DNA of 64,000 nucleotides from Flavobacteriaceae bacterium PS02334 (GTDB lineage: Bacteria > Bacteroidota > Bacteroidia > Flavobacteriales > Flavobacteriaceae). The DNA lies in NCBI GenBank assembly GCA_029959295.1, contig JASCOH010000001.1, positions 62,001 through 126,000 of the forward strand, given 5' to 3'. The notes below the pieces were generated by a model. The model saw nothing but the letters and a program-made list of their open reading frames with translations, did not search any database and had not been told where the DNA came from. A program made the translations under genes and the position numbers. Within the stretch, counting starts at the first letter, position 1; each line of letters opens with the position of its first letter. Positions 12,008 to 30,528 of this stretch are shown one piece after another.

Positions 12008-12039
12008 TTTGCAAGAAAACCTTTACTCACTTATATTTA
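12008..12039 (+). promoter_or_regulatory. candidate promoter of the carbamoyltransferase gene
   Basis: TTTG (12008-12011), 20-base spacer, TATATTTA (12032-12039; 7/8 of TAnnTTTG), 57 bases before the ATG. Confidence 0.45.
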
Positions 12040-12096
12040 CAAAAAGTTAGCCACCACCAAATCTTCAGAAAACAAACCTAATCCCCAATCTTTCAA

Positions 12097-13794: not shown

Positions 13795-13796
13795 CC

Positions 13797-14489: not shown

Positions 14490-14625
14490 ATTGAAATAAT
14501 TGAATTTGTTATCTAATTAAGCTTCCCCTGTAGCGCTAAATTAGTAAAATTCTTCCATAAAACAGAACAAAAATTAAAGCGCGATTTCAAATTTCAATGC
14601 TAGCCCGCTGCTAAAAATACATCCT

Positions 14626-14650
14626 AAAAAAAGCCACCCTGAGGCAGCTT
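14626..14650 (-). terminator. terminator after the acidic peptide gene
   Basis: On the minus strand an 8-bp GC-rich stem (AAGCTGCC / GGTGGCTT, two G-U pairs) with a short loop runs into seven T. It lies 22 bases after the peptide stop codon. Confidence 0.65.
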
Positions 14651-14672
14651 CTACTAAAAAAGAATTACGGAT

Positions 14673-14876
14673 TTAAACCGCACTTCCCGGACTTGTCGGT
14701 GCCGGACCTCCCGCAGGATCCACGTCGCCCCAGTCGCCGTCTTCTTCTAGATCGTCTTCCTCTTCTTCCTCACGGTCGTCGTCTTCGTCGTCATCGCGGT
14801 CAGAAGCATACATTTTAAAATTGCTGGAAAGATCAGTGTATTCGTTCACCTCATCTTCGTTTTGGTCCTTTTTCAT
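14673..14876 (-). CDS. highly acidic 67-residue peptide of unknown function
   Basis: The sequence splits in three: a polar head (MKKDQNEDEVNEYTDLSSNF, 1-20), an acidic block (about 27-50) made almost only of Asp and Glu with one Trp (DGDWGD), and a Pro/Gly/Ala/Ser tail (PAGGPAPTSPGSAV, 54-67). There is no signal peptide or membrane segment. The gene has its own terminator and a 173-base upstream region, so it is a discrete unit and not a chance frame. I do not recognise a family. Short length, extreme composition and a nearby beta-hydroxylase and carbamoyltransferase allow the idea of a ribosomal peptide substrate. A free-standing acidic protein is equally possible. Confidence 0.65.
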   Translation of the reverse strand: MKKDQNEDEVNEYTDLSSNFKMYASDRDDDEDDDREEEEEDDLEEDGDWGDVDPAGGPAPTSPGSAV

Positions 14877-16100: not shown

Positions 16101-16288
16101 TCTAGAGATTGAATATAGGTGTATAGAGAATAAACATACCTGTCTAGAGATTGAATCTAGGTGTCTAGAGAATGAATAAAAGTGTCTAGAGAATAGACAT
16201 ACCTCTCTAGAGAATGAACCTAGGTGTCTAGAGAATAGCGCAAGTAGCCTAGAGAATAGTCTGCCATGTCTAGAGAACAGACAAAAAG
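16101..16288 (+). repeat. 21-bp tandem repeat array 1 (nine units)
   Basis: Nine consecutive units of exactly 21 bp, beginning at 16101, 16122, 16143, 16164, 16185, 16206, 16227, 16248 and 16269 (the last is incomplete). Each has the form TCTAGAGAAT-N5-TAGGTG, where the TCTAGAGA part is nearly invariant and the middle varies. Because 21 is a multiple of three and about two helical turns, frames stay open and the TCTAGA cores fall on one face of the helix. A second array of the same unit lies at 30340 in the opposite orientation. The array fills the gap between the 311-residue orphan gene and a small HTH gene that starts 37 bases beyond it. Confidence 0.95.
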
Positions 16289-16325
16289 AAGTAAAAATTA
16301 ATACAAACGCCAAAAAACCAGTACC

Positions 16326-16697
16326 ATGTTAAAGCACAAAAGATCATCGATCGAAATGAAAGAATCCAGCATCGTTTTAGACTTGATGCCTGTATTCAAA
16401 TCAAGAAACATCAAGTTTCCCGCACAGTTTTTAAAACGCTTCGGCATCTGCAGCGCTTCGGCCAGCAAGATGATTAAGGGCAAAGCCGTGCAAATCAATT
16501 TTACCCAGCTGACCGCCATCTGCCTGAATCTTAACTGCACGCCAAACGACATCATGGCGCTGCGCTATCTCCCGCTTCCAGAAAATCATGCCCTGAAAGT
16601 GATTCGCAAATTAGAGTCTCATGAGGAGTTTAAGAGTATTGACGAATGGGCTATGGGTAAGAGTTTTGAGGAAGTAAGGGAGATTATGAGGAAGTAG
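16326..16697 (+). CDS. small XRE/Cro-like helix-turn-helix protein
   Basis: 123 residues. Residues about 32-80 carry a five-helix Cro/CI-like domain (PAQFLKRFGICSASASKMIK with the turn at about 42-46, then FTQLTAICLNLNCTPNDIMAL). A basic N-terminal stretch and a charged C-terminal helix (ESHEEFKSIDEWAMGKSFEE) flank it. The start could also be Met11 (16356). It is a predicted DNA-binding protein, without a recognisable ligand or protease domain and without an obvious toxin partner. It lies immediately downstream of the 21-bp repeat array, which is therefore a conceivable binding target; this is speculation from position. Confidence 0.7.
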   Translation: MLKHKRSSIEMKESSIVLDLMPVFKSRNIKFPAQFLKRFGICSASASKMIKGKAVQINFTQLTAICLNLNCTPNDIMALRYLPLPENHALKVIRKLESHEEFKSIDEWAMGKSFEEVREIMRK

Positions 16698-16828
16698 GGA
16701 GATTATAGTGGATATATATTTCAATTGGCAAATATGTGCCATAATTTATCGACAATATGTAAGTTACCGGAAATTGCTTTAACAACAAATAGATTTCTTA
16801 ATAAACAATTTTAAATAACCTTTGAATT

Positions 16829-17194
16829 ATGAAACCATCCGTACAATACAATGACAGAATTGGTCACGCTTCAGCAGACATTGCAGGAATTGACTATGAT
16901 GCAATCGCAAGACGTTGTAATCTTGGAGAGAGATATACAATAATTGGAATTTCCCTTTCTGGAACTAGAGATATTAGTGTATCACTTTTATGCAGAGATA
17001 ATGATGAGAGCACTCCCTATAATGAAGTTTTAGTGAATGTTTATCCAAGTATTGATCTGTCAATTAACAATGTTATTGAACGTCTTAATGTGACTATAAA
17101 CATTACAAATGACCGAAAATATGATGACCCAGAATTGGATACAGTTCGAGAAGTTAATATTGAAGTAGAAGACGAAGACGATAATGAAGATTAA
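16829..17194 (+). CDS. hypothetical protein with acidic C-terminus (121 aa)
   Basis: Not recognised. The translated product is beta-rich in its middle (YTIIGISLSGTRDISVSLL, NEVLVNVYPSIDLSI) and ends in a run of acidic residues (EVNIEVEDEDDNED). There is no signal peptide or membrane segment. It is followed 16 bases downstream by a REP-like hairpin. The AT-rich composition and orphan neighbours suggest accessory DNA. The frame is long enough and its codon use regular enough to be believed, but no function can be proposed. Confidence 0.55.
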   Translation: MKPSVQYNDRIGHASADIAGIDYDAIARRCNLGERYTIIGISLSGTRDISVSLLCRDNDESTPYNEVLVNVYPSIDLSINNVIERLNVTINITNDRKYDDPELDTVREVNIEVEDEDDNED

Positions 17195-17209
17195 TAAATA
17201 ACAATGTCT

Positions 17210-17279
17210 GCTAGCGCGAGCGTCCCGCTCGTGAGGTTAACAGTATTTTTGTAGACACGAGCGAGACGTTCGCGCCAGC
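17210..17279. repeat. REP-like hairpin, copy A
   Basis: Two 24-base arms (17210-17233 and 17256-17279) pair with three mismatches across a 22-base AT-rich loop. The arm core is GCGAGCGTCCCGCTCGTG, far more GC-rich than the surroundings. The same arm occurs at 17707 and 18167. Confidence 0.85.
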
Positions 17280-17338
17280 GAGGAAGCTAATTCTGATGGA
17301 AATAAATTGAAAAACAATCTAATATAACATAAATAATT

Positions 17339-17695
17339 TTGACATTTACTCAATTTATAGTTTCATTCTTAATAATTCTTATACTTAGTCTGAATTATAT
17401 AAAAGAGCGCAATCGTAGAAAACACTTTCGTACAATTCGTGTAATTCCAAGAGTAAAATTCACACAGAGAAAATCAATTATATGTCAATCCAATTTAAAA
17501 GAAATTGTGAGATGTTCATTCATAAGTATAGGAATTTTTATATTTTTAACTGGTCCATTTATACTAGTTTATAGCATTTACGGATGGTTTTATTATTCTA
17601 AATATGATTTAAAATTAGTAATTAGCTCTATATTAATGATTGTAATAGGTTTATTTTTAATTTTAAAAACCGATAAGATTTTTTCTAAATTTTAA
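17339..17695 (+). CDS. small multi-pass membrane protein, TTG start (118 aa)
   Basis: The only in-frame start able to give a complete product is TTG at 17339; no ATG lies near the N-terminus. Three hydrophobic segments are visible: residues about 4-19 (FIVSFLIILILSLNY), about 60-83 (FISIGIFIFLTGPFILVYSIY) and about 94-112 (LVISSILMIVIGLFLIL). A basic loop (KERNRRKHFRTIR) lies between the first two, so that loop is predicted to be cytoplasmic. No family recognised. The gene is bracketed by REP-like hairpins A and B. Confidence 0.5.
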   Translation: MTFTQFIVSFLIILILSLNYIKERNRRKHFRTIRVIPRVKFTQRKSIICQSNLKEIVRCSFISIGIFIFLTGPFILVYSIYGWFYYSKYDLKLVISSILMIVIGLFLILKTDKIFSKF

Positions 17696-17706
17696 ATTTT
17701 ACAAAT

Positions 17707-17779
17707 GCTGGGGCGAGCGTCCCGCTCGTGCCAATTAACAAATAATCCGTGTGTTCACGAGCGGCACGCTCTCGCCAGC
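17707..17779. repeat. REP-like hairpin, copy B
   Basis: Arms 17707-17730 and 17756-17779 pair with about three mismatches across 25 bases. The same GCGAGCGTCCCGCTCGTG core as copies A and C is present. The following stretch, 17780-17989, holds nothing I can identify. Confidence 0.85.
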
Positions 17780-17989
17780 GAGGGAAGTTGGTTTTGTGTT
17801 TAGGATGATTTGGCCAATCTGAAAATAGGGCTTAATTTAGTCCCAAACTACTTGCAGTGCGCGAAACGTTAGCAATCACCGTGAGCAACTTGTTGAAAGT
17901 AGGAGTAGTTTTGAGTTACTATTGAAAAAAATAACGAACTTTGATTGACTAAGAAAACTAAAGTTTTTTAATTTCAAAAAATATTGAAT

Positions 17990-18154
17990 ATGAGACTATT
18001 TATACCAATCGTATTGACTGTTATATTTCTTTTTTACATTCTTTATCTAGCATTTGTAAAGAAAAACCTGAAAGCTAATACTACTAAAATTCTTTATCCT
18101 GGATTGTTTTTTATTTTAGTGTGGGGAATTATATATTTTGAATTTCTCAAATAA
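17990..18154 (+). CDS. 54-residue two-helix membrane peptide
   Basis: ATG at 17990 to TAA at 18154. The product is almost entirely two hydrophobic helices (about 3-23, LFIPIVLTVIFLFYILYLAF, and about 35-52, LYPGLFFILVWGIIYFEF) joined by a basic loop (KKNLKANTTK). That gives a hairpin topology with the loop inside. There is no known family and no partner antitoxin evident. It is bracketed by REP-like copies B and C, like the other small membrane protein just upstream. Confidence 0.45.
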   Translation: MRLFIPIVLTVIFLFYILYLAFVKKNLKANTTKILYPGLFFILVWGIIYFEFLK

Positions 18155-18166
18155 TTAAAGCCCCCC

Positions 18167-18190
18167 GCTGGCGCGAGCGTCCCGCTCGTG
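18167..18190 (+). repeat. REP-like element, copy C (single arm)
   Basis: One 24-base arm identical in its core (GGCGCGAGCGTCCCGCTCGT) to copies A and B; the pairing arm is missing. Confidence 0.8.
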
Positions 18191-18271
18191 AACATGTAAA
18201 TTATCGGGTTACTAGCGGAATAATTAGCATCTGACAACTAAGTATAGTTAATGACAGAAAAATAACAAACC

Positions 18272-18715
18272 ATGATTATAAGAGAAGCTAAAACTAACGA
18301 CATCAAACAAATTCAAATCGTAAGAAATTCGGTAACAGAAAACACTCTGTCTAATCCTAACCTAGTGACAGACGAAGATTGTGAAGAATTTATTACGGAA
18401 AGAGGGAAAGGCTGGGTGTGCGAAATCGACAGCCAGATTGTAGGCTTTGCAATTGCTGACTTGAAAGAAAATAACATCTGGGCATTATTTTTAGACCCTA
18501 AGTTTGAGAAAAAAGGCATCGGGCAACAGCTCCACAAGACAATGCTCGACTGGTATTTTACGCAAACAAAAGACACCGTATGGCTAGGAACTGCTTTTAA
18601 CACAAGAGCAGAGCTGTTTTACAGAAAGGCTGGCTGGAAAGAAGCCGGAACCCACGGAACAAAAGAAATTAAATTTGAAATGACATATAACGACTGGGTT
18701 GGCCTGAATCGTTAA
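18272..18715 (+). CDS. GNAT-family N-acetyltransferase
   Basis: 147 residues. The GNAT fold is visible: MIIREAKTNDIKQIQIVRNS (beta1-alpha1), WVCEIDSQIVGFAIADLKEN (beta2-3), and motif A, WALFLDPKFEKKGIGQQLH, with the acetyl-CoA pyrophosphate loop K-K-G-I-G at about 76-82. The C-terminal part (WLGTAFNTRAELFYRKAGWK) is the usual beta5-alpha4 region. It would transfer acetyl from acetyl-CoA to an unidentified amine. The gene stands alone after REP-like copy C and just before a small membrane protein gene. Confidence 0.82.
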   Translation: MIIREAKTNDIKQIQIVRNSVTENTLSNPNLVTDEDCEEFITERGKGWVCEIDSQIVGFAIADLKENNIWALFLDPKFEKKGIGQQLHKTMLDWYFTQTKDTVWLGTAFNTRAELFYRKAGWKEAGTHGTKEIKFEMTYNDWVGLNR

Positions 18716-18737
18716 TATCAGTTTATTATAAAATACT

Positions 18738-18920
18738 ATGAACAATAAAAAAGGACTATCATTTCCCTTACTAATTATAGCAATCGTTATTGGAGCTACT
18801 ATTTTTAAACAATTCGATTTTAAAAATCTACGATTTGAAGAGCCTGCCATGGCTGTCATCTATATTTTGACTTTTCTTATGACGGTTTATTTTATTTTTA
18901 AGAATAGTAAGGAAAAGTAG
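18738..18920 (+). CDS. 60-residue two-helix membrane protein
   Basis: Two hydrophobic segments, about 8-22 (SFPLLIIAIVIGATIF) and about 37-55 (MAVIYILTFLMTVYFIF), are joined by a charged loop (KQFDFKNLRFEE); the peptide ends in Lys-rich NSKEK. It starts 22 bases after the GNAT stop codon, so co-transcription is plausible. No family recognised. Confidence 0.5.
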   Translation: MNNKKGLSFPLLIIAIVIGATIFKQFDFKNLRFEEPAMAVIYILTFLMTVYFIFKNSKEK

Positions 18921-19002
18921 CAATAGTAAACAAGGATTGTGCTTGCGGGATGCAACCTCTAAACTGCGTAAAAGTACTAACAGAAATAAAGCAAAATTGA
19001 CA

Positions 19003-20097
19003 ATGGCAAAATTCAAAAATCCAATCTTCTCTTTACTGCTGGTATCTTTATTTTTCACCTCTTGTAATGGACAGAAAAAAACAGAACAGCCAACTGAAAG
19101 CGCAGCTGAACAGCTGTCATTTACAAGCAAAAACACAAAACTGACCAAAACACAAGGCACAAACGAATATCAAAATGTGCATTGCATTATTCAAGACAAA
19201 AAAGGCAACTTTTGGTTTGGGACAACCGGCGAAGGCGTTTACCGATATGACGGAAAAGAATTTACCCAGTTTACAGAAAAAGATGGTTTGAGTAATAATA
19301 AAGTCTGGTCTGTTTTAGAAGATACCGCTGGAAATATTTGGTTTGGAACAGATGATGGCATTAGTCAATATAATGGAAAAACTATTTCTAAAGTTCCATA
19401 TACTAAGGGCACAAGCAGTTTAGGAACAGTCGCATCAGGTAGAAATGCAGTATATAGCATGATGCAGGACAAAAGCAGCATAATTTGGTTTGGAACAGAC
19501 AGCGGTATGTATTGCTATAATGGTAAAACATTTTCTAACTTTTTAGACAATGCAGCCATCGCAAACAAAAGCAATCTAACGCTAAAGAGCGTGCAATGTA
19601 TATTTGAGGATAAGGATGGAAACTTTTGGTTTGGATCAGGACCAATGGCATTTGAAGGCATTGGTTTCTATGATGGAAAATCTTTAACCAACTTCAAACC
19701 GCAAAACGAAGGATGGATAAGAACAATAACTGAAGATAAGGATGGAACTTTATTATTTGCCACCAGACATATCGGCATGATTACTTATGATGGAGAAAAC
19801 TTCACTGGTTTTTCTGAACCACAAAAGATAAGAAAAGATTTGATGAATACTGTTTTAGCAGATAGCAAAGGAAACATCTGGTATGGTTCTGATTATACGA
19901 ATGATAAGGATATAACCACAGGCGGTCTTTGGAAATTTGACGGAAAATCATTTGTTGAGTTTACAAAGAAAGATGGGTTGGGCAACACATCCATCTATTC
20001 TTTGACAGAAGACAAAGCAGGCAACATTTGGATTGGAACACGAAACTATGGACTGTATCGCTACGATGGACAAACATTTGAAACTTTTTCAGAATAA
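19003..20097 (+). CDS. lipoprotein with two-component-regulator-type propeller repeats
   Basis: I chose ATG 19003 because it places a lipoprotein signal at the N-terminus (MAKFKNPIFSLLLVSLFFTSC, Cys at about 21); upstream codons would bury it. The rest is a chain of Reg_prop blades with the recurring pattern D-x-x-GNxWFGT-x-G-x-YxYDGK (first GNFWFGTTGEGVYRYDGKEF, last GNIWIGTRNYGLYRYDGQTF). About seven blades are visible, enough for one beta propeller. In hybrid two-component sensors such blades form the periplasmic sensor, but here no membrane helix, kinase or regulator domain follows. The protein is a free lipid-anchored propeller of 364 residues. Confidence 0.82.
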   Translation: MAKFKNPIFSLLLVSLFFTSCNGQKKTEQPTESAAEQLSFTSKNTKLTKTQGTNEYQNVHCIIQDKKGNFWFGTTGEGVYRYDGKEFTQFTEKDGLSNNKVWSVLEDTAGNIWFGTDDGISQYNGKTISKVPYTKGTSSLGTVASGRNAVYSMMQDKSSIIWFGTDSGMYCYNGKTFSNFLDNAAIANKSNLTLKSVQCIFEDKDGNFWFGSGPMAFEGIGFYDGKSLTNFKPQNEGWIRTITEDKDGTLLFATRHIGMITYDGENFTGFSEPQKIRKDLMNTVLADSKGNIWYGSDYTNDKDITTGGLWKFDGKSFVEFTKKDGLGNTSIYSLTEDKAGNIWIGTRNYGLYRYDGQTFETFSE

Positions 20098-20260
20098 CCA
20101 GACAAATTGTAAATTTGGCAACAGATAACCATGTATAATAGACACAGGCGAGATGCGGCAGTAATTTTTTTAGAACCAAATAGTAAAACTTATTACAAAA
20201 TTCGACTTTGCATCATTAAATGATTGCTATTTGATAAATTACAGTATCTTTAAAAAAAAC

Positions 20261-20686
20261 ATGAATAAAAAAGGCCCCATAATTTTTATTGAAGACGATC
20301 AAGACGACCAAGATGTTTTAGCTGCTGTTTTTGAAAGTCTTGATTATAAAAATGAAATCATATTTTTTACCGAAGCTGAAAAGGCTTTGGAATTCTTAAC
20401 CGCTACTAAAATTAAGCCCTTTATTATTTTTTCTGATATCAACATGCCAAAACTCAATGGGATGGAATTAAGAGAGAAGGTTTATGAAAACAAGCAACTG
20501 GAGATAAAGTCTATTCCTTATTTGTTTTTTTCGACGACCGCTGAACAGAAACACGTCATTGATGCCTATTCAAAATCAATTCAAGGATTTTTCATAAAAC
20601 CGTCCAACTATAACGAAATTAAGGAGGTCATGAAAATTATAATTGAATATTGGCAAAAGTGCGTTTCTCCAGAATATACCGGATAG
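20261..20686 (+). CDS. single-domain response regulator (receiver only)
   Basis: 141 residues from ATG 20261, preferred over a TTG 30 bases upstream because the protein then begins directly at the first beta strand (GPIIFIEDDQDDQDVL). Receiver residues are all present: acidic pair Asp12/Asp13, phosphoacceptor Asp59 (FSDINMPKLNGMEL), Ser/Thr at 91-92 (FFSTT) and Lys113 (FFIKPSNY). There is no output domain. This is the CheY-like form common in Flavobacteria, where it relays phosphate from hybrid or histidine kinases. No kinase is encoded next to it. Confidence 0.85.
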   Translation: MNKKGPIIFIEDDQDDQDVLAAVFESLDYKNEIIFFTEAEKALEFLTATKIKPFIIFSDINMPKLNGMELREKVYENKQLEIKSIPYLFFSTTAEQKHVIDAYSKSIQGFFIKPSNYNEIKEVMKIIIEYWQKCVSPEYTG

Positions 20687-20790
20687 CGCTAAAAAAGATT
20701 TTTTTTTAAGTTTGATAAGCTTATTTTCAAGTTTGGAGAACTTAATAATACCGTTGGCAAAATTTCCAACCGAACGATACTAAATTTACA

Positions 20791-21105
20791 ATGAACCCAA
20801 AACCACATTTTATTGCCCTTCTCACCTATCTTCCTTCTCAAAAAGGCAAGCGAACCACGCCTGTTTCTTCTGGTTATCGGCCTTCCATAAAATTTCCTTT
20901 TGATCAAGGCCAATTTACTGGTGTCCAAAATTTTGTTGATACTGACTTGGTTTTTCCTGGCGATACTGTTACTGCAGAAATAACTATGCTCAATAAAGAA
21001 TATTTCGAAGGAAAAATTTATAAAGGATTGGATTTTGATTTTTTTGAAGGACCGAATTTGATTGGCCATGGGATAATTACCAAGGTTCTTGAGGCCGATA
21101 AGTAG
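20791..21105 (+). CDS. free-standing EF-Tu C-terminal-domain-like protein (104 aa)
   Basis: The protein resembles the third, beta-barrel domain of elongation factor Tu: FIALLTYLPSQKGKRTTPV corresponds to the EF-Tu strand ending in GGR-TP, and SGYRPSIKF (27-35) to SGYRPQFYF. VFPGDTVTAEITML then matches the PGD strand. The GTPase domain and domain II are absent, and the length fits one barrel. What such a solitary domain does is unknown; binding of RNA or another translation factor is conceivable. The gene stands alone. Confidence 0.65.
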   Translation: MNPKPHFIALLTYLPSQKGKRTTPVSSGYRPSIKFPFDQGQFTGVQNFVDTDLVFPGDTVTAEITMLNKEYFEGKIYKGLDFDFFEGPNLIGHGIITKVLEADK

Positions 21106-21156
21106 CAACTCCAATTTTTATTTCAAGTATATAAAAAGTAATTACCAATTTTACAT

Positions 21157-21190
21157 AAAAAATTATGCTGACTTTTGGAGAGTCAGTTTA
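21157..21190 (-). terminator. terminator of the pectin esterase/lyase operon
   Basis: On the minus strand CTGACT / AGTCAG forms a 6-bp stem with a 7-base loop, followed by an AT stretch ending in TTTTTT, just after the CE12 stop codon. Confidence 0.5.
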
Positions 21191-21196
21191 ATGATT

Positions 21197-21958
21197 TTAA
21201 TCGTTCTTCAAATACTTCGCCAAAGGATGTCCTTGCCTTTTCAATTCACCCACAAAAATCTTGGCAATTTCTGTAGCGCCCAAAACAGACAAATGTGTGT
21301 TGTCCTCGATTCCTTTTGGAATGTAAGCGTTTTCATCTGGAGCAAAATGCAGGTGCAATTTCTTTGAGCCTTCCACGCCATAAGATTCTTCTAAAAGCTC
21401 CGTAAAATATTGCATATCAAAAAACGGGACGTTCCTTTCTTGCGCCACCAAACGTGCCTGCAATGTATAATTTCCATGGGAATCTAATAAAACGCCCTGC
21501 TCGTTGAATTTTCTTCTGGCAATTGACGAGAACAAAATCGGGATGGCTCCTTTTGCCCTGGCTTCTTCTACATAACGAATCAAATTGTGTCGGTAAGAAG
21601 TCTGCGGATTGGTATATCTTGTAGGATCGGTTTCTTTTCCGTCGTTATGCCCGAATTGGATGAAGACATAATTTCCTAGTTTCAAGGAATCTAAAACCGT
21701 CTGCCAATGTTTCAAATCTCTGAAACTTCGCGTGCTTCTGCCGTTGACAGCGTGGTTTTTAATAGTCACTTTACCGTTAAAAAAAGGCGACAAGACTTGC
21801 ACCCAGCCTCTTTCTGGATTTTCATTCGGGTTTGGCTTGTTTGCCATCGTGGAATCTCCAATGGTATAAATTACAACAGGCGAATTCTCATCAGTCTGTG
21901 CACTTTTACAGCCGATTGCAAGAATTACTGCCAAAACTAAGATCTTATAAATTTTCAT
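21197..21958 (-). CDS. rhamnogalacturonan acetylesterase-like SGNH esterase (CE12)
   Basis: 253 residues. A lipoprotein-type signal (VLAVILAIGC) is followed by the SGNH blocks: block I GDSTMANK with catalytic Ser, block II GRSTRSF, block III FGHND (about 104), and block V DNTHLSVLGA with the Asp/His pair (about 217-225). This is the CE12 pattern, which removes acetyl groups from the rhamnogalacturonan backbone so that lyases and hydrolases can act. Its start overlaps the end of the PL10-CE8 gene by 14 bases, so it is the last gene of the five-gene operon starting at 27026. Confidence 0.88.
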   Translation of the reverse strand: MKIYKILVLAVILAIGCKSAQTDENSPVVIYTIGDSTMANKPNPNENPERGWVQVLSPFFNGKVTIKNHAVNGRSTRSFRDLKHWQTVLDSLKLGNYVFIQFGHNDGKETDPTRYTNPQTSYRHNLIRYVEEARAKGAIPILFSSIARRKFNEQGVLLDSHGNYTLQARLVAQERNVPFFDMQYFTELLEESYGVEGSKKLHLHFAPDENAYIPKGIEDNTHLSVLGATEIAKIFVGELKRQGHPLAKYLKND

Positions 21959-23939
21959 ACCATTGTATTTTTACATCTGGATTATTTTCGCCCAAGATAT
22001 TTTTAATAGTATATTTTTTTGCTTCTTTTTTAGCAAGCTGGTGCGACCATTTTACTCGAGAATCGGTTTTTGAGCCTTCGCCGTTATTTTGGAATTCTGC
22101 GTAAAAAGTGCCTTTTTCAGCTTCTGGTTTTGACCAATTATTCCAGCCTTCTGGCAAAATGTGCTTGCCTAAATTGCTGTTCATGAAAACGGTTTTTCCG
22201 TAAAAACGCCAAGGTCTTCCCAAATAAACTTTTGAAATCGAATCTTCTGAAGTCAGCTTGCAATTATTGAAAACAAATCCGAATTCTGTGCCTTTTGGCG
22301 TTGACGAAGCCGTTACAAACGAATCGCTTTTGCTATGAATTTCGCAGTTTTCAAAATAAGCCGTCGCACTTCCGAAGATAAAATCAGTCGTTCCGTCGAT
22401 GTAGCAATCTTTGTAATATTGCTTTCCAATTCCCGAAGCGTAAAGCGTATCTTGGTGTCCCAAAAGCTTGCAATTGACAACTGCAACATGCGTTGAAGTT
22501 ACTGACAGCGCAATCGCCTGCCTCACTTGTCCCGAAGAATTTTCAATGGTCAGGTTCTTCAAAAGGATATCGTTGGCTTCCACAAGCATTGTATAGGTAT
22601 AAAAAGTGCTGTTTCTCCCCACGCCAATTTTATCGAAATGATCGTTGAAAGTGATGATCGTATTTTCTTTGCTCTCGCCTATCAAATGCAAGTTCGTATT
22701 CCATTCATGGACTTTTATTTTTTCATTATAAATTCCGTTTTTGATAAAAATTACAATCGGCTCATAAGGATAAGCGTGGCTTTGGTTGATCGCTTCTTGA
22801 ATGGAAGTAAAATCTGCAGAACCGTCTAAAGCCACCGTAATTTTATTCGGATCTTTCGGCGTCGGCATTTTGTTTTCTTTCCTCCAAGTCGCAAATTTCA
22901 CGATCACTTTTTCAGGAGAATTTACGTACCAAGCGTAGCCATTTCTGCGTTCGTGGCCAATTTGAGAAAGCGAATCTTTCTTGATTCCGTCTCTGTCGCA
23001 AAAGAAAGGCTTGTTATTTTCCAATTCCATAAAACGAGCCCAGATTGGTTTTTCGTTTTTCGAAAGCACCATTTTTCGGTCAATCTGCTTTCCGTTTTCA
23101 TCATAGACTTTGACTTCCTTTAAATTGGTGATTTTCGTTTTTTCAAACCAAGTCACTGCATTATTTACTGCCGTAATAATTTCTTTCGAAGGATTTTTTA
23201 TAGACATCAATAAAGAAACGATTCCAGCAGATTCATGTCCGCTTAATGACTTCAACTCAAAACTTCTGGCATCGGCAGGCTGCAACGTAAATTCATCATG
23301 TTGCGCGCACCAAGCTGTCAGAACTCCGTTTTGCTTGTATTGCGTTTTTAAAATACAGTCGATTCCTTTATTAAATGCACTAATGGATTTTTGCCTGATT
23401 TCTTCGGATGGTTTTATCGAATAAAAATCAGTCTGCTCGTTAATTTCCTTTAAAACCTTGAGCACATTGACCATCGCATCATCATTGTACGTAATGTGGG
23501 AAGAATATTTTTTTTCCAAAGGATAAAATTGTGGCCAGCCACCGTTTTCATATTGCGCTAGCAGCAGATAATCCAAGCCTTTCAAAAAAGCAGTTTTGTG
23601 TTTTTCTTGCGGATTGTGCTTGTAGATTTTAGACAGAAAAAGCATTTCCATTGTGGTTGCCCCGTTGTCAATCGTGCATTCTTTTGTACTTGGTTTCAAG
23701 GCCAATAAATCAGCTTTTTGTTTGGCAGAAAGCGGTTCTTGCATCTGGATATTTTTTGGCCAGGCGCCGATATTCCGCTGATATAACAATACGTTCTCCC
23801 CTATTTCTTGAGCTTCCTTCGACTGAAACCAAGCTTCGTCTTTGCTATTTACAATTTCTTTCCAGGTGACTTTCGAATTTTGGGCTTGACCCTTTGAAAT
23901 TCCTAGAAATAGTACAAAAAGTATCGTTATTTTTTTCAT
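21945..23939 (-). CDS. fused pectate lyase (PL10) and pectin methylesterase (CE8)
   Basis: 664 residues with a signal peptide (cleavage near KGQAQ). Residues about 20-335 are a PL10 lyase (LLYQRNIGAWPKNIQM, DNGATTMEMLFLSKIYK, GGWPQFYP, HITYNDDAMVN, RNGYAWYVNSPEKV). Residues about 365-655 are a CE8 pectinesterase: ALDGSADFTSIQEAI, GHQDTLYA (about 493) and GTTDFIFGSATAYFENC (about 515) with the two catalytic Asp, and LGRPWRFYGKTVFMNS (about 575). The esterase removes methyl groups from homogalacturonan, producing the pectate that the lyase domain cleaves by beta-elimination. The start overlaps the GH105 stop. There is no sorting domain, so it is probably periplasmic. Confidence 0.93.
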   Translation of the reverse strand: MKKITILFVLFLGISKGQAQNSKVTWKEIVNSKDEAWFQSKEAQEIGENVLLYQRNIGAWPKNIQMQEPLSAKQKADLLALKPSTKECTIDNGATTMEMLFLSKIYKHNPQEKHKTAFLKGLDYLLLAQYENGGWPQFYPLEKKYSSHITYNDDAMVNVLKVLKEINEQTDFYSIKPSEEIRQKSISAFNKGIDCILKTQYKQNGVLTAWCAQHDEFTLQPADARSFELKSLSGHESAGIVSLLMSIKNPSKEIITAVNNAVTWFEKTKITNLKEVKVYDENGKQIDRKMVLSKNEKPIWARFMELENNKPFFCDRDGIKKDSLSQIGHERRNGYAWYVNSPEKVIVKFATWRKENKMPTPKDPNKITVALDGSADFTSIQEAINQSHAYPYEPIVIFIKNGIYNEKIKVHEWNTNLHLIGESKENTIITFNDHFDKIGVGRNSTFYTYTMLVEANDILLKNLTIENSSGQVRQAIALSVTSTHVAVVNCKLLGHQDTLYASGIGKQYYKDCYIDGTTDFIFGSATAYFENCEIHSKSDSFVTASSTPKGTEFGFVFNNCKLTSEDSISKVYLGRPWRFYGKTVFMNSNLGKHILPEGWNNWSKPEAEKGTFYAEFQNNGEGSKTDSRVKWSHQLAKKEAKKYTIKNILGENNPDVKIQWYENL

Positions 23940-25150
23940 TACTTATTTAGTTCTAAAGCCGCTAAAATGAACGGTCCAGTTGCTTTCGGGTCGTTGTCTT
24001 GCTTGCGTTCGTTGATGTAATATTCATAAGAACCGTCACGGTAAGGATTTCCTCCCAGGCCAGCGACAGCACAAGCTTCAGTAATAATTACGTAACCTTC
24101 TGGAGTCACTTTTACCAAATTTTTCGTCATTCCGTCGAAGGCTTTTTCGGCTACTTTTTTATATTCTTTTGGAAGATAGCCTTTGTTCGCACCTTTGGCA
24201 AAAGAATAGGCAAACATCGCCGATCCTGAAGCTTCTAGGTAATTTCCTTTTCTATCGCCTTGATCTGTAACTTGGTACCACAATCCGGAAGAATGCTGCT
24301 GTTTTTTTAAAGCGTCGGCCAATTGGTTGAAATAAGCTACCAATTCTTTATGTTTTGGATGATTTTCTGGCATAAAATCTAAAACTTCAACCAACGCCAT
24401 AGCGTACCAACCCAAGGATCTTGACCAAAAATTTGGCGAAGTTCCTGTTTCTTTATTTGCCCAGCCCATTTGCTTGCTTTCGTCCCAACCGTGGTATAAA
24501 AGTCCGGTTTTTGGATCGACTAAATGCTTTTGGATGACTTCAAATTGCTTTGCGATATCGTCAAAGTTTTTTCCGTTTTCAAATTTAGAAGTGTATTGTG
24601 CATAAAATGGCGAGCCCATGTACAATCCGTCGAGCCACATTTGATTTGGGTATACTTTTTTGTGCCAAAAGCCACCTTCGGAAGTACGAGGATGTTTTTC
24701 TAATTGGCTTCGAAGTGTCTGCAAAGCCTTTAAATACTTGTCTTCTTTGGTTTTATCGTAAATGAAGAAAAGCGCATTTCCTGCCGCCAACATATCGATA
24801 TTATAATTTTCTAATTTATAGCTTGGAATACTTCCGTCTTCATTAATTGTTGAATCGTAATAGCCTTTTATGTAGTCAAAATAAGCCTGATTGTTCGTTT
24901 TTTTATACAATTGCTCAAAAGACGACATCACCAAACCGTGAACATAATCCCACTTTGGTTCTTTTTTTTCATCAATCTGGTACGCATTCGGATGTTTTTT
25001 CATCAATGTCTGCGCCAATCTTTCTGACCACTTTAGTTTGTCGGAAACTTCCAAATTAGCGCTACTTTTTGCACTTTGAGATTTGCAATTCGTAAGCAAC
25101 ATAATAGCGAAAACTGCCAATAAAGTCTTCTGTAAAAAACTATTTTTCAT
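23939..25150 (-). CDS. unsaturated rhamnogalacturonyl hydrolase (GH105)
   Basis: 403 residues with a lipoprotein signal (FAIMLLTNC). The (alpha/alpha)6-barrel signatures of GH105 are present: YDSTINEDGSIPSYKLENYN, MWLDGLYMGSPFYAQY with the likely catalytic Asp, and HGWDESKQMGWANKETGTSP followed by FWSRSLGWYAMALVEVL. Near the end, GSAMFAYSFAKG and YRDGSYEYY complete the pattern. GH105 enzymes hydrolyse the unsaturated uronyl residue that lyases leave on rhamnogalacturonan or galacturonan oligomers, giving the 5-keto-4-deoxyuronate handled by KduI. It lies between the DUF4861 gene (one base away) and the PL10-CE8 gene. Confidence 0.92.
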   Translation of the reverse strand: MKNSFLQKTLLAVFAIMLLTNCKSQSAKSSANLEVSDKLKWSERLAQTLMKKHPNAYQIDEKKEPKWDYVHGLVMSSFEQLYKKTNNQAYFDYIKGYYDSTINEDGSIPSYKLENYNIDMLAAGNALFFIYDKTKEDKYLKALQTLRSQLEKHPRTSEGGFWHKKVYPNQMWLDGLYMGSPFYAQYTSKFENGKNFDDIAKQFEVIQKHLVDPKTGLLYHGWDESKQMGWANKETGTSPNFWSRSLGWYAMALVEVLDFMPENHPKHKELVAYFNQLADALKKQQHSSGLWYQVTDQGDRKGNYLEASGSAMFAYSFAKGANKGYLPKEYKKVAEKAFDGMTKNLVKVTPEGYVIITEACAVAGLGGNPYRDGSYEYYINERKQDNDPKATGPFILAALELNK

Positions 25151-25151
25151 A

Positions 25152-26129
25152 CTAGCCTAATTTATCGCTTTTGTTTAATTTGCTCAAATTGGCATCTAAA
25201 TATTGTATAAATTCTTCTTTCGATTTGATGCCGCCAACCTCTTTTTCCCAAGCGCCTAAAAAGTAAAATGTCACTTTTTCTTTCGAAGGTTTAAATTGGA
25301 TCAAATGATCGTGCGGGCCTTCAAATGGTTTTTCAGCTGTGGAAACTTCATAAAAAACGGCCATTCCCAGATTGTCATTGAAAAGCGTTTGGTTTCCGTA
25401 CGTCGCAATATAGCCCCATTTTTTGTTTTCGCTTAACTTTTCAATTACAGGAAGGTTGTTTAATTTAACAATTCCAGTACAAATTCCGTCCATTAATTCA
25501 GAAGATTGGATGGCATGTTTTGTATAACGCTCGTCTGGGAAAATAGTCAGCCAAGATTGCAGATTTGTTTTCTGATTGTTCGTTTTCCATCCAAAATAAT
25601 CTACTTTTATTTCAGATTTATCTTTGTCATTTGACGCTTTTGCAAAAGTCGAATCGACGTCTTTAAAATGATACATTTCATTGTTAATCACTCTTCCGAT
25701 AGAACCAACGCCCATTCCTTTGGCCACTTTTAAAATATCTGCGCCCCAATTGCTCATGTTGTGATAGGAATCAAATCCGTCTTGACCGACTTTTGAAAGC
25801 ACTAAAGTATCGGTCAATTTTCCATAAATATCGATGGCATTTCTCCAGTCTAAATACAATCTGTAGCCGACTTTATTGCTTTCCCAACCCGGACCTTCAT
25901 AGCGAATGTACCAAGAATGATCGGTGTGATTTGCAGGAACTTTCAAGCTTTCTACGTTTTTAAAACTGCCACCTTCGTATTTTCTTCCGTTCCATTTGCC
26001 ACCTTCTTTTACAGAAATTTCGGCATACGTTTTTTGATTTTTTGATTGCAGGCTAACTTCTTTTTTTGAACCGCAACTTGCTAGTAAACAAAGTGCCGCG
26101 CCTGCTAAAATTGATTTTGATAAATTCAT
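25152..26129 (-). CDS. DUF4861 family lipoprotein, pectin-locus associated
   Basis: 325 residues with a lipoprotein signal (AALCLLASCGS). The rest matches the DUF4861 pattern I know from pectin and alginate loci: NHTDHSWYIRYEGPGWESN, VGYRLYLDWRNAIDIYGK, GQDGFDSYHNMSNWGADILK and GPHDHLIQFKP. The fold suggests a polysaccharide lyase or sugar-binding role. It is encoded between an esterase and GH105 in one operon, so it probably works on pectin oligomers in the periplasm. Biochemical activity is not established here. Confidence 0.82.
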   Translation of the reverse strand: MNLSKSILAGAALCLLASCGSKKEVSLQSKNQKTYAEISVKEGGKWNGRKYEGGSFKNVESLKVPANHTDHSWYIRYEGPGWESNKVGYRLYLDWRNAIDIYGKLTDTLVLSKVGQDGFDSYHNMSNWGADILKVAKGMGVGSIGRVINNEMYHFKDVDSTFAKASNDKDKSEIKVDYFGWKTNNQKTNLQSWLTIFPDERYTKHAIQSSELMDGICTGIVKLNNLPVIEKLSENKKWGYIATYGNQTLFNDNLGMAVFYEVSTAEKPFEGPHDHLIQFKPSKEKVTFYFLGAWEKEVGGIKSKEEFIQYLDANLSKLNKSDKLG

Positions 26130-26132
26130 TTT

Positions 26133-27026
26133 TTAAGATTTTAATTTTTCGTCTAAGAAATTTATGGTATACTGTATTGTTTGTTCGAACCAAGGATGAA
26201 ACAGCCAGAACGTGTGCGGACTATCTGGAATTTGTTCCACTTTTGAATAAATTTTGTAGCTATCCAGTTTTTCAATCATGTCATTTCTGCCGGCGTGAAA
26301 ACGGTCGTGCTGGCTGTTTATGAATAAAATTGGTGGCGTATTTTTATCCACATGGGAAAGCGCCGAAGCGTCATTCCAAATTTCTGGAACTTCTTCATAC
26401 GTTCCTCCGAGCCATAATGCGGCATATTTTCCTTCGGCAGACTCTGGATGGTGGAAAGCTACAATTCCGTCGATATTTACGATTGCTTTTATATCTGTAT
26501 TAAATTTTGTTCCTATTAAAGAAGCCATCTGGCCTCCTGAAGAACGTCCTAAAATTGCGATTTTCTTTGTATCTATATTAAATTTTTCAGCATTATTTTT
26601 TATGTATTCTATTGCTTTCAAAACATCTTCAATTCCTGCCGGATATTTTGCTTCGTCTGACAATCGATATTCTATGGCAAAACATTGATACCATTTTAAT
26701 GCAATTGCTTCGGCAAAAGGCTGGAACATTGATTTATCACCCGATTTCCAACCGCCGTCGTGAAGCATGATTATTGCTGGAAGTTTTTTATTCGATTTAA
26801 AAATATAAGAATCAAGATGTAAATCTCTATTTCCAATAGAATGATAAACACTATTTTTTTGCTCGATTACTAAAGGATTTTGTTTTGGCTGTACAATTTC
26901 AATAGAAGGATATTTTTTAAGTTGCTTTTTATATTCCGAAGCTATTGTATATGAAGTATCTTTTGCAACTTGACAAAAGGCTACGTTTGTTGTTAACAGT
27001 ATAAAAAAGCAAATTAAATTACTCAT
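26133..27026 (-). CDS. secreted alpha/beta hydrolase, probable pectin esterase
   Basis: 297 residues from ATG 27026 (a TTG two codons earlier gives no benefit). A signal peptide ends near AFCQ. The oxyanion-hole motif HDGGW (about 89-93) replaces the usual HGGG. The nucleophile motif is GRSSGGQ (Ser at about 163). Later, FINSQHDRF and SPHTFWLFHP supply the Asp and His. The family includes BD-FAE and acetyl esterases of carbohydrate loci. As first gene of the operon with DUF4861, GH105, PL10-CE8 and CE12, it probably removes acetyl or feruloyl groups from pectin. A LacI operator lies 70 bases upstream. Confidence 0.85.
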   Translation of the reverse strand: MSNLICFFILLTTNVAFCQVAKDTSYTIASEYKKQLKKYPSIEIVQPKQNPLVIEQKNSVYHSIGNRDLHLDSYIFKSNKKLPAIIMLHDGGWKSGDKSMFQPFAEAIALKWYQCFAIEYRLSDEAKYPAGIEDVLKAIEYIKNNAEKFNIDTKKIAILGRSSGGQMASLIGTKFNTDIKAIVNIDGIVAFHHPESAEGKYAALWLGGTYEEVPEIWNDASALSHVDKNTPPILFINSQHDRFHAGRNDMIEKLDSYKIYSKVEQIPDSPHTFWLFHPWFEQTIQYTINFLDEKLKS

Positions 27027-27095
27027 TATCAATTAATTGAATTATAAAAATCTGATGTTATTACTACAAAACCACAAAATAATATGCTTTAAAAA

Positions 27096-27109
27096 AGTAA
27101 TCGATTACA
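27096..27109 (-). promoter_or_regulatory. LacI-type operator 1 (esterase/GH105/PL10-CE8/CE12 operon)
   Basis: The core GTAATCGATTAC (27097-27108) is a perfect palindrome. It directly follows, on the minus strand, a consensus -7 box. Confidence 0.85.
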
Positions 27110-27117
27110 CAAAAATA
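27110..27117 (-). promoter_or_regulatory. -7 promoter element of the esterase operon
   Basis: The minus strand reads TATTTTTG (perfect TAnnTTTG), directly upstream of operator 1. Transcription would start inside the operator. Confidence 0.65.
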
Positions 27118-27439
27118 CTAAAAATACTATATTAATAAAAATAATAGCTTAAAAATTAATATAGTATTATTTATAAAGGATTAAACAAGGATATTCTCAA
27201 AAATTTTATATCATTTATACTTAAAAACAGTAATGAAATTATTCAATTATTTAGCAAAAAATTATAATTCTAGAAGAAATTGCATTAAAACATATAAATC
27301 AAGCAAATATTATTTACTAAAAACTAAAAAATGAAGACTAAATACAAAGCCACAACAAGAACACTAATGCCAGTAAATTCAACTATAAGATAAACATTAC
27401 GCAAAAAAAAGCGAAAATAATTTTATTCTACATAAAAAA
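27118..27439. other. AT-rich intergenic stretch without gene
   Basis: This part of the divergent region between two pectin transcription units is extremely AT-rich. It has no frame, repeat or stable hairpin that I can support; a 20-codon frame at 27331 is too short to call. Confidence 0.5.
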
Positions 27440-27470
27440 TTTGGAATATAATTTTTATTTCCTAATTTCG
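27440..27470 (+). promoter_or_regulatory. promoter of the PL1 pectate lyase gene
   Basis: TTTG (27440-27443), 19-base spacer, TAATTTCG (27463-27470; 7/8 of TAnnTTTG), directly abutting operator 2. Confidence 0.7.
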
Positions 27471-27484
27471 TGTAATCCATTACA
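27471..27484 (+). promoter_or_regulatory. LacI-type operator 2 (PL1 pectate lyase)
   Basis: TGTAATCCATTACA, the shared palindrome with one central base changed (C for G), placed right after the -7 element and 36 bases before the ATG. Confidence 0.75.
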
Positions 27485-27520
27485 TAAAATAATTTAATAC
27501 TAATATTCAAAAACTTAAGC

Positions 27521-30025
27521 ATGATGAAAAGAATTTTATTCAATTTAATAATCTTACTGATTTCAGTGCATGTGAGCGCACAAACGATCAGTATTACGCA
27601 AGCTACCGGCTGGCTCGAGACCGCTTATATAAAGTGGACGCCAGTTGCTGGAGTTGACAGCTATAATGTATATTACACAGGAGGAGGTTTGACAGACCAA
27701 AGAATCGACACACAGCTTATTCGAAATTACGGAACTTACTTTCGTGCAGACGTTTTAGGACTTGCTGCAGGAACTTACACTATCAAAGTTGCTCCTGTAA
27801 CCGCAAATGTGGAAGGCACTGCAACTGTTTCAACTCCTGTGACAGTTTTAGCTCATGACAGAAATGGTTTTGCACATGAAGGAGGCAAGATTCCAGGTGC
27901 TTATAATCTTAATGGTACCCTAAAAAGCAACGCGGTAGTTTTGTATATAACTCAAAATACAAAGAACACAGTATCCATGACTGTGACTGGCGCTACGACA
28001 AATCCATGTGTTGGCTTGCAGACCATTTTAGACGGATTTAAAAAAGGACGCGACAGCCGTCCGTTGGCAGTTCGTTTGATTGGGAATATTACAGATCTTA
28101 GCTATATGTTAAGCGGCGATCTTGTTATTGAAAACAATAATTTAGCTACAAGTTCCATTACTTTTGAAGGCGTAGGATCTGATGCCGTTGCCAATGGCTG
28201 GGGACTTCGCATTAAAAAAGCGTCTAATGTAGAAGTTAGAAATATCGGTTTCATGCTTACCGATGCTGGCGAAGGCGACAATGTTAGCTTACAGCAAGAT
28301 AACGATCACATCTGGGTGCACAATTGCGATATGTTTTATGGCGCGCCAGGCGGAGATGCCGATCAAGCAAAAGGCGACGGAGCTTTAGACTGCAAAAAAT
28401 CTACAAACATAACTTTCTCTTACAACCACTTTTGGGATAGCGGCAAATGCAACCTTTTAGGCTTAAGCGAAGGCACAACGGCGGGATTATATATCACTTA
28501 CCACCATAACTGGTATGACCATTCTGATTCTCGCCATCCGCGTGTTCGCTATTATTCTGCGCACGTTTACAACAATTATTTTGATGGAAATTCTAAATAT
28601 GGCGCCGGATCTACTTTAGGTTCTTCTGTATTTATGGAAGGAAATTTCTTCCGCAATTGCAAATACCCGATGCTCACTTCTATGCAGGGAACAGATGTTT
28701 ACAATGGCGCCCAAGGTACATTTTCAGGAGAAGATGGAGGTACAATTAAAGCTTACAACAACACTATGAGCGGTCAGACGAGATTTATTGCTTATAACGC
28801 TACAAATTATCCGATTGAATTTGATGCTTATGTCGCAGCAACAAGAAGCGAAACGGTAAGCAGTACCATCAAGTCTAAGAGAGGCGCTAATACTTACAAT
28901 AATTTTGACACCAATCCAGCATTATACATCAATAGCTTGGTAATTGAAGAACCTTCAGTTGCAAAAGACAAAACGGTGCAATATGCTGGCCGTGTTTCTG
29001 GTGGCGATTTGATTTGGGCATTTACAAGCCCAGGCGATGACGCTTCTTCTTCAGTAAATACCGGATTGCTTGCGGCTTTAAATTCTTATACTTCTGGATT
29101 GGTTGCCGTTCAAGGCGAAGCTCCTACAGGCGTAAGCACGCAAACACTTGCAATTCCTAACAATAACGACCAAACGGTTGCAAATAATGCGCCGATCAGC
29201 AACATGGTTTTCACTTGGGGAGGAACTGCAACTGATGCTACCGTAACCGGATTGCCAGCTTCAGGAATTGTTTTTGTGAAAAATACTACTGCAAAAACCG
29301 TTACCGTTTCTGGAACACCGACTGCCGATGTAAGCTTCTCTATTACGACTGTTGGAGCTTCTGGCACGCCAGTTTCTGGGTCAGGAACAATCACTGTTAG
29401 CGATGAGCCGGGAGAACCTGCAGGAAATCAGATTCACAATTTCACGGTATCAGGCTTGACAAGCACATTTTATACTTTTACTTCAGCAAACATGAATGCT
29501 ACAGCGGGTTCTGCAACTTATGACGGCTTGGCTTTGACTGCCCGCTTGAAAATAGAATCGGCTACAAATATTTCTTACACGACGCCAGCAGTATCAACTT
29601 TGACCTTAGTTTTCGATCCTACTTTTGCCGGAACGATTAAACTTAACGGCACCAATTACACTGCTACTGCCGGATTGGTCGTTATACCTTCAGTTCCTGC
29701 AGGAACAAATACTATAACTAAAGGAGGAACGACAAATTTATACTACATCAAAACAGAATATCAGTCTGTGTTGGGCTTGCCAAACAATATTGTGGCACAA
29801 AAATTAGTGCTTTACCCAAATCCGGTTACCAATGAACTAAATATAGCTTCTCCAAATTCTAAAACTATAGAAAAGGTGAGTGTATATAATCTTGTTGGGC
29901 AATTGGTGAAAAATGTTGGAGGAAACCACAAAACGATTGACATGAGCGATCTTAGCAGCGGTACTTATTTAGTAAAAATCCAAACAAATGACGGTGTGAT
30001 TGACCAAAAAATCATCAAAAGATAA
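27521..30025 (+). CDS. secreted pectate lyase (PL1) with type IX sorting domain
   Basis: 834 residues with a signal peptide (cleavage at VSAQ, about residue 21). The order is: a fibronectin-III-like domain (about 24-105, VDSYNVYYTGGG); a PL1 beta-helix lyase (about 115-430) with HIWVHNCDMFYG, DGALDCKKSTNITFSYNHFW and the catalytic Arg region SRHPRVRYY (about 338); a Pro/Gly/Thr-rich adhesin-like segment; a WDFG-type module (about 635-745, NQIHNFTVSG to YYIKTEYQ); and a Por C-terminal sorting domain (LVLYPNPVTNELNIA, LSSGTYLVKI). It would be exported by the type IX system and cleave homogalacturonan outside the cell. It is monocistronic, under operator 2. Confidence 0.93.
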   Translation: MMKRILFNLIILLISVHVSAQTISITQATGWLETAYIKWTPVAGVDSYNVYYTGGGLTDQRIDTQLIRNYGTYFRADVLGLAAGTYTIKVAPVTANVEGTATVSTPVTVLAHDRNGFAHEGGKIPGAYNLNGTLKSNAVVLYITQNTKNTVSMTVTGATTNPCVGLQTILDGFKKGRDSRPLAVRLIGNITDLSYMLSGDLVIENNNLATSSITFEGVGSDAVANGWGLRIKKASNVEVRNIGFMLTDAGEGDNVSLQQDNDHIWVHNCDMFYGAPGGDADQAKGDGALDCKKSTNITFSYNHFWDSGKCNLLGLSEGTTAGLYITYHHNWYDHSDSRHPRVRYYSAHVYNNYFDGNSKYGAGSTLGSSVFMEGNFFRNCKYPMLTSMQGTDVYNGAQGTFSGEDGGTIKAYNNTMSGQTRFIAYNATNYPIEFDAYVAATRSETVSSTIKSKRGANTYNNFDTNPALYINSLVIEEPSVAKDKTVQYAGRVSGGDLIWAFTSPGDDASSSVNTGLLAALNSYTSGLVAVQGEAPTGVSTQTLAIPNNNDQTVANNAPISNMVFTWGGTATDATVTGLPASGIVFVKNTTAKTVTVSGTPTADVSFSITTVGASGTPVSGSGTITVSDEPGEPAGNQIHNFTVSGLTSTFYTFTSANMNATAGSATYDGLALTARLKIESATNISYTTPAVSTLTLVFDPTFAGTIKLNGTNYTATAGLVVIPSVPAGTNTITKGGTTNLYYIKTEYQSVLGLPNNIVAQKLVLYPNPVTNELNIASPNSKTIEKVSVYNLVGQLVKNVGGNHKTIDMSDLSSGTYLVKIQTNDGVIDQKIIKR

Positions 30026-30042
30026 TTAGCAAATAAAGCTTG

Positions 30043-30078
30043 AAAAAAACCTTCTCTTAATCGGGAAGGTTTTTTTTT
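30043..30078 (+). terminator. terminator of the PL1 gene
   Basis: A7-CCTTC / GAAGG-T9 stem with a 10-base loop, 18 bases after the stop codon. Confidence 0.85.
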
Positions 30079-30339
30079 GGCCTTTGCTTAGATTTATAAA
30101 ACAATAATTTGAGATTTATATTTTAGAAAAGTAATATTTATCAGTCTTTTAAAATACTTAGTGGCTGTTTTTATTTACTGCACAAACAGAAGCTAGTAAT
30201 CGATTGCCCAATTCACTATCCAAGACGTTTCATTTCTGCCACTCACCTATTCTTAAAACAATTTAAACAGAGCATCTTCTCTAATTAGATAAAGTGCTTG
30301 TCTTTCTTCATTTGCATTTGTTTTTTATTGATTTTATCT
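30079..30339. other. intergenic stretch with one weak operator-like site
   Basis: No gene seen. GTAATCGATTGC at 30196-30207 matches the LacI operator core in 11 of 12 positions, but no promoter or start follows it. The rest is featureless AT-rich DNA leading into repeat array 2. Confidence 0.4.
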
Positions 30340-30528
30340 TATCTCTAGACACCTAACTTCATTCTCTAGATATTTATGTCTATTCTCTAGACAGTTATAT
30401 ATATTCTCTAGACACCTATATGCATTCTCTAGATAGGTATGTTTATTCTCTAGACACCTAGCTACATTCTCTAGACACTTATGTCTATTCTCTAGAGGCT
30501 GAACTCTAATCTCTAGACATAATTCTGT
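30340..30528 (-). repeat. 21-bp tandem repeat array 2 (nine units, inverted relative to array 1)
   Basis: Nine exact 21-bp units begin at 30340, 30361, 30382, 30403, 30424, 30445, 30466, 30487 and 30508. On the plus strand each reads ATTCTCTAGA followed by a variable part, often CACCTA-N5. The reverse complement is the unit of array 1 (TCTAGAGAAT-N5-TAGGTG). The core TCTAGA is present in every unit. The array lies between the PL1 gene and the orphan sorting-domain protein, outside any supportable gene. Confidence 0.95.

Follow-up and report, generated by a model that had tools for sequence, protein, structure and literature searches.

How do two tandem arrays of 21-bp units come to lie in the window (the whole 64,000-nucleotide stretch from Flavobacteriaceae bacterium PS02334 that was analysed), what reads them, and are they peculiar to this one genome? 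An earlier note on this DNA had described two arrays of nine 21-bp units. Both are real, with array 2 at 30329–30517, 11 bp away from the 30340–30528 first given. Four features of the window are needed for what follows:

16101–16289, plus strand: array 1, with nine units of 21 bp; it precedes the HTH gene and is co-oriented with it
16290–16325, plus strand: spacer of 36 nt from array 1 to the HTH start codon, presumed to be a leader or the end of a promoter
16326–16697, plus strand: gene for a small Cro/C1-type HTH protein of 123 aa (Pfam HTH_26, PF13443, 31.7 bits, residues 32–78)
30329–30517, minus strand: array 2, an orphan array of nine units of the same type as array 1

Every unit of both arrays measures exactly 21 bp, with no insertion or deletion. 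When the best place in the window was taken for each lag from 8 to 120, the top five lags were 21, 42, 63, 84 and 105, all of them at arrays 1 and 2. The lag-21 identity is 0.67 for array 1 and 0.71 for array 2, and the score of 0.714 for array 2 compares with a maximum of 0.446 in 60 first-order Markov resamples of 64 kb. The motif proposed earlier as common to all units, TCTAGAGAAT-N5-TAGGTG, survives only in part: the full form is exact in 4 of the 18 units (one in array 1, three in array 2), whereas the core TCTAGAGA, which is the part common to the units, is exact in 7/9 units of array 1 and 9/9 of array 2. The second half of the units alternates, giving a 63-bp higher-order repeat. Units 1–7 of array 1 align in register with units 3–9 of array 2 at 82% identity; the two arrays therefore look like copies of each other. 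Within columns 1–8 of this alignment there is a difference in 1 of 56 cells, against 25 of 91 in the other columns (Fisher p = 3e-5). Thus, the core has been kept while the remainder of the unit has drifted.

Array 2 lies between two convergent genes, for a pectate lyase (27521–30025, plus strand) and a secreted-type protein (30679–31479, minus strand). We considered several known kinds of element for the pair of arrays. A 14.4-kb transposon with the inverted arrays 1 and 2 as its ends was rejected: the enclosed genes include an ordinary pectin-degradation set, homology was seen only within the arrays themselves, and the two arrays of the paralog described below are on different contigs. A CRISPR array was rejected because the 21-bp units stand head to tail without spacers, and no Cas domain was found among the scanned window proteins next to arrays 1 and 2. 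The VNTRs of F. psychrophilum do not match either, their units being 4–9 bp in the available part of the source (PMC4501049).

Other parts of the window have features of their own. Several G+C-rich inverted repeats (GCTGGCGCGAGCGTCCCGCTCGTGA-like) occur at 17210–18194, shortly after the HTH gene in intergenic DNA that is otherwise A+T-rich; from their appearance we take these to be REP elements. Genes for a luciferase-like monooxygenase, an HxlR regulator, a carbamoyltransferase and an Asp/Asn beta-hydroxylase lie at 10421–14876, together with a very acidic ORF of 67 aa (14673–14876, minus strand), which ends in GGPAPTSPGSAV and has no Pfam match. These genes and the ORF possibly make up a small peptide-modification cluster.

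A search of the 4.59-Mb genome with a three-unit pattern (at most three mismatches) gave 58 matches, all within four arrays; the pattern read backwards gave 4 matches. Two of the arrays are outside the window:

contig C44, 426741–426929: array 3, nine units by inspection
contig C11, 428487–428675, minus strand: array 4, nine units by eye and eight by automatic calling

Columns 1–8 are near-invariant over the 36 units (T34 C32 T36 A36 G29/C7 A36 G35 A36). There are two unit types in the genome, one shared by arrays 1 and 2, and array 3 is most like array 4. Array 4 ends 37 nt before a paralogous HTH gene, which is co-oriented with it and 54% identical. A third relative, on contig C22, has 30% identity and also a 21-bp array upstream (0.59). 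No HTH gene is found beside either array 2 or array 3. The latter is flanked by convergent HmuY and HemS genes of a heme-uptake locus.

Strict searches with the TCTAGA unit had first suggested a one-genome oddity. As an array, this unit is found in its own genome only (1 of 299 genus genomes). In a larger set 8 of 398 genus genomes match, seven of them with a single one-mismatch match each, and a reversed-pattern control also matches in 7 genomes. When 150 relatives were searched with the DNA of array 1, the matches beyond its own genome were four short, weak ones (E 0.006–0.01). The earlier note had named confinement to one strain, as a recent slippage product, as an outcome that would speak against its reading. 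Confinement is literally the case for the TCTAGA letters; recent slippage does not follow from it, because the architecture and the period recur with other units. The idea of a one-genome oddity is wrong: what is species-bound is the letters, not the architecture.

This became apparent with the HTH protein as the query. Relatives were found in 21 of 299 genus genomes at 27 loci, 25 of which carry a 21-bp-period array (at least 0.58) with quite different letters. A family profile was built from 21 proteins of that set, picked irrespective of the array and including one without it. This profile matched 50 times, in 35 of the 398 genus genomes. Among 395 genomes drawn from the phylum it matched in 7, and five of these are outside the genus (one in another family of the order, one in another family of the class and three with a placement to phylum level only). 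The six loci of these five genomes all have a lag-21 signal, between 0.50 and 0.87. An open frame was required of every locus; 56 matches were entered, L306 was dropped for its broken frame, and the remaining 55 loci, including the six from outside the genus, fall into 40 clusters when grouped at 70% protein identity. Among them L275 and L190, from separate contigs of the same assembly, are identical, and L309–L311 are near-identical copies.

The lag-21 identity reaches at least 0.5 within 600 bp upstream in 53 of the 55 loci, and downstream in 1/55. Lag 21 is also the best of lags 15–30 in 53/55. The exceptions without a clear array are L285 (0.38) and L299 (0.47). As background we used 600-bp segments from 80 named loci, mostly Flavobacterium, of which 15/2686 reach 0.5; twelve of the 15 are 7-bp repeats, and the other three have no clear tandem units. 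The earlier note had overlooked the HTH gene beside array 1, the presence of four arrays in two unit types, and this HTH-family-wide architecture (53/55). The pairing of HTH gene and array is general in Bacteroidota, and the window holds one example of it. We found no description of an HTH-array pair in the open-licence literature searched, and the paired DNA-binding system seems to be undescribed.

The heptamer repeats form a separate class. Intergenic direct repeats such as TAACTGA, some of them long, are described for bacteria including some Bacteroidetes in the available part of that report (PMC4679880). The HTH arrays differ from these in having no signal at lag 7 or lag 14 (0.34 and 0.33), against 0.66 at lag 21. 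Long 7-bp intergenic repeats are present in the named Flavobacterium loci at L084:7050–7300 and 13560–13730, as well as in L065, L076, L077, L080, L095, L096, L115 and L128, and some lie directly between pectin-locus genes.

The window HTH protein scores above the curated cut-off of 22 bits for HTH_26 and has a C-terminal extension that is common to the family. With Pfam at E ≤ 0.01, HTH_26 was found in 21 of 21 family members and HTH_3 in one, and no MerR model was reported for these members at the same threshold. No relative was found in the PDB at E ≤ 0.01. The PADLOC anti-phage defence models gave one weak match in one of the 21 members (PDC-M69A, E 0.002). A tblastn search with the window HTH protein returned only five weak partial HTH matches from 72,556 plasmid records and only one from phages. 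Plasmid or phage origin was rejected, these matches being weak and partial and the HTH matches in 25 viral contigs all partial. A lag-21 score above 0.5 occurs in 1 of these 25 (L269); it is at L269:3280–3420, with an identity of 0.59, just downstream of the partial HTH match. All arrays of known context are on contigs with ordinary genes.

The spacing of the units is close to constant across the family. Among the 53 arrays, a junction of exactly 21 bp is found 489 times out of 495 (automatic calling, 5–21 units per array, several of the five-unit calls being doubtful), so the two-turn phasing proposed earlier is strict. The mean self-identity of these arrays is 0.66 at lag 21 and 0.65 at lag 42, and lies between 0.30 and 0.34 at all remaining lags between 3 and 41. 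The distance from array to gene varies widely. Slippage or unequal crossing over could give neutral satellite repeats, and the 63-bp higher-order repeats and the species-bound letters of the units are what such a process would leave. We hold this to be extremely unlikely, since the arrays are linked to one gene family (53/55), keep one constant period while otherwise diverged, and have kept the core between copies.

The units change together with the proteins. Protein identity correlates with unit similarity when the units are read on the gene strand (Mantel r 0.54, p 2e-4; 30 arrays, with L178, L187 and the duplicate L190 excluded), and the correlation is −0.08 for the other strand of the same arrays. 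Joint descent partly contributes to this covariation. For proteins below approximately 35% identity, the similarity of the units does not exceed that of column-shuffled controls. The units have no palindromic symmetry beyond chance, as one array in 30 exceeds its shuffles in this respect at the 0.05 level; they are thus asymmetric, and palindromic operator units were rejected for this reason.

An array could also work as RNA or as a peptide-coding repeat. With a period equal to seven codons, some arrays keep long open frames, and at L169 one such frame extends beyond the array into the HTH gene. In arrays 1 and 2, however, the open frames are on opposite strands of the unit, as the earlier note had described: antisense in array 1 (FSRHLxS) and sense in array 2 (CLENxxx). 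Across 24 arrays there is no coding signal, with 18 of 144 frames open against 13.5 expected when the unit columns are permuted, and no Rfam family is found in the window at the gathering score. Peptide repeats were rejected on the frame counts, which bear out the view that the DNA, not the peptide, is conserved. We regard a role as RNA or peptide as very unlikely.

The promoter region was inspected for the Bacteroidetes-type −7 box, whose consensus is TAnnTTTG. Of 31 loci, 11 have an exact box no more than 100 bp from the start, compared with 59 of 886 background segments; in 7 of the 11 loci the box lies between the array and the start. The window HTH gene has no exact TAnnTTTG box within 100 bp of its start.

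Seven orphan arrays were compared with the 53 HTH arrays, and for 5 of the 7 the best match of all is an HTH array of the genome that they come from: array 2 (0.94, to array 1), array 3 (0.89), the two orphans of G226 (0.89 and 0.77) and that of G205 (0.87). The G226 orphans were found with the G226 array as the query, and their match is partly due to selection. The G205 orphan came from the same search and prefers its own genome's array over the G226 query array. This search covered eight genomes and gave an orphan in 3 of them (G226 with two, G205 and G186). In G065, G232 and G149 it left the genome's own HTH array unmatched, and in G278 the match was not an array; the absence of orphans there is therefore uninformative. 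G285 was searched with one of its own arrays and showed no clear orphan.

The other two orphans behave differently. That of G186 (L233:9700–10120, approximately 20 units) resembles the arrays of other genomes (0.62), and its own HTH array ranks 35th of 53. The G013 orphan (L195:682–850) has eight units with a partly palindromic sequence, ACGCCAAATTTGGCAT, and lies approximately 9 kb from an HTH-array locus; it has no good match among the 53 HTH arrays (best 0.47). A profile search found no full-length family gene in the 20-kb surroundings of the G226, G205 and G186 orphans. A short HTH (29 bits) is located approximately 6.7 kb from one of the G226 orphans. Of six orphans whose neighbours were compared, three are between convergent genes and three between co-directed genes.

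Some of the array-gene pairs have been copied as a unit. G013 carries three copies (L309, L310 and L311, each at approximately 1200–1940 in the direction of the gene) of a cassette of approximately 735 bp, which is made of the array, the HTH gene and a conserved 3′ end with a hairpin fold. The copies are 92–94% identical, and their flanks are unrelated. A gene for an IS200-like Y1 transposase adjoins L308, a related copy. In one subgroup the same downstream neighbour gene is found in 8 loci of 7 genomes. Taken together, the cassette is capable of being copied, and inheritance in place occurs as well. If the pair were a small mobile or selfish cassette, with the array serving its copying or regulation and the orphans as remnants that lost the gene, this would account for the G013 copies and for the transposase gene. 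The constant neighbour of the subgroup indicates vertical descent instead, no transposase common to the family was found, and a dead remnant would not need the core that was kept between arrays 1 and 2. We consider the mobile cassette unlikely as the explanation of the family.

Iteron arrays of replicons and ParR/parC-type centromeres are known examples of tandem direct repeats that lie beside the gene of their binding protein; a replication initiator or motor protein normally accompanies them. In the family described here the protein is of the HTH_26 type, and there is no family-wide initiator gene, unlike in an iteron replicon. The closest likeness in arrangement is StbA of plasmid R388. In the available part of the report (PMC3098194), the stbDRs are 9-bp repeats with 2-nt spacing (an 11-bp period) in two sets of five around StbA's own promoter, the motif is also present in fewer copies in other promoters, and stbA is in a plasmid operon with stbB and stbC. 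StbA is proposed to pair or position loci through a complex on the stbDRs of R388. As far as that account goes, both systems have phased direct repeats beside the binder's own gene, here upstream of it in 53/55 loci, and further sites elsewhere. The HTH arrays differ in having a 21-bp period and 5–21 units, in being chromosomal and in having no family-wide operon partner.

This comparison raises the possibility of a one-protein centromere-like or DNA-tethering system, in which the HTH protein coats the array and pairs or positions loci and is not a regulator of transcription. An array preceding the gene of its binder, a large number of phased sites and further arrays elsewhere would be expected of it. 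The convergent genes around 3 of 6 orphans, the loose array-gene distance and the failure to find a partner gene common to the family point the same way. The arrays are, however, chromosomal; partition of the StbA type belongs to a plasmid, whereas the plasmid (5 records) and phage (1) matches of the HTH protein are weak and partial. The family is not essential to the genus, as it occurs in 35/398 genomes. In four places on single or large contigs the gene is at varied fractions of the contig, so that a common position is not evident, although the contig starts are arbitrary. On balance, tethering as the sole function is unlikely.

A second known system, BldC of Streptomyces, offers a likeness in the protein. 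BldC is a small MerR-like winged HTH protein, which binds direct repeats head to tail as cooperative, extendable multimers; its sites consist of few repeats of approximately 9 bp and occur at many promoters, as given in the available part of the source (PMC5859096). A small HTH protein and direct repeats are found in the array family as well. The Cro/C1-type HTH_26 domain and the long, strict 21-bp arrays next to the protein's own gene set the family apart from what is described for BldC. Neither StbA nor BldC is a membership match for the HTH-array family. Small DNA-binding proteins with arrays of binding sites are already known as a kind, and the HTH-array pairing would be a variant of it.

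The reading that we favour is that the array is probably a multi-site binding platform of the adjacent Cro/C1-type HTH protein, which would regulate its own gene and also act at the orphan arrays. One protein assembly would read one 21-bp unit, and the asymmetry of the unit would let the assembly sit directionally. As the spacing of the units corresponds to two helical turns, the copies would be on one face and could assemble cooperatively into one nucleoprotein complex. Cooperative binding of a protein at the arrays, which the earlier note had proposed, is plausible; the results speak neither for nor against nucleoid anchoring, its other suggestion. The adjacent array may autoregulate the HTH gene, as its position suggests, or may be a nucleation site. 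Orphan arrays would put other loci under the same protein, array 2 under the HTH protein of the window and array 3 under its paralog. What happens at the orphans is the least certain step of the mechanism. Half of those examined are at sites without an expected promoter; tethering or domain organisation is therefore as possible there as control of transcription.

More tentatively, and with somewhat less than an even chance of being right, the family may be a class of self-specific nucleoprotein elements across Bacteroidota. Each member would pair a small HTH protein with approximately 5–21 two-turn sites of its own, at an invariant period but with a recognised sequence that may diversify, so that orthogonal pairs could exist in one cell; the orphans would be docking sites far from the gene, through which distant chromosomal loci are silenced, tethered or organised.

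If this is true, sequences resembling junk satellite repeats belong to a system in which each array has a partner protein, and which occurs in several families and classes of Bacteroidota. The family would then offer a naturally occurring series of HTH protein–site pairs, from which the recognition code of Cro/C1-type HTHs might be read directly, and a ready-made set of orthogonal DNA-docking arrays. It would also raise the question of why a small regulator needs many phased sites plus distant copies of them.
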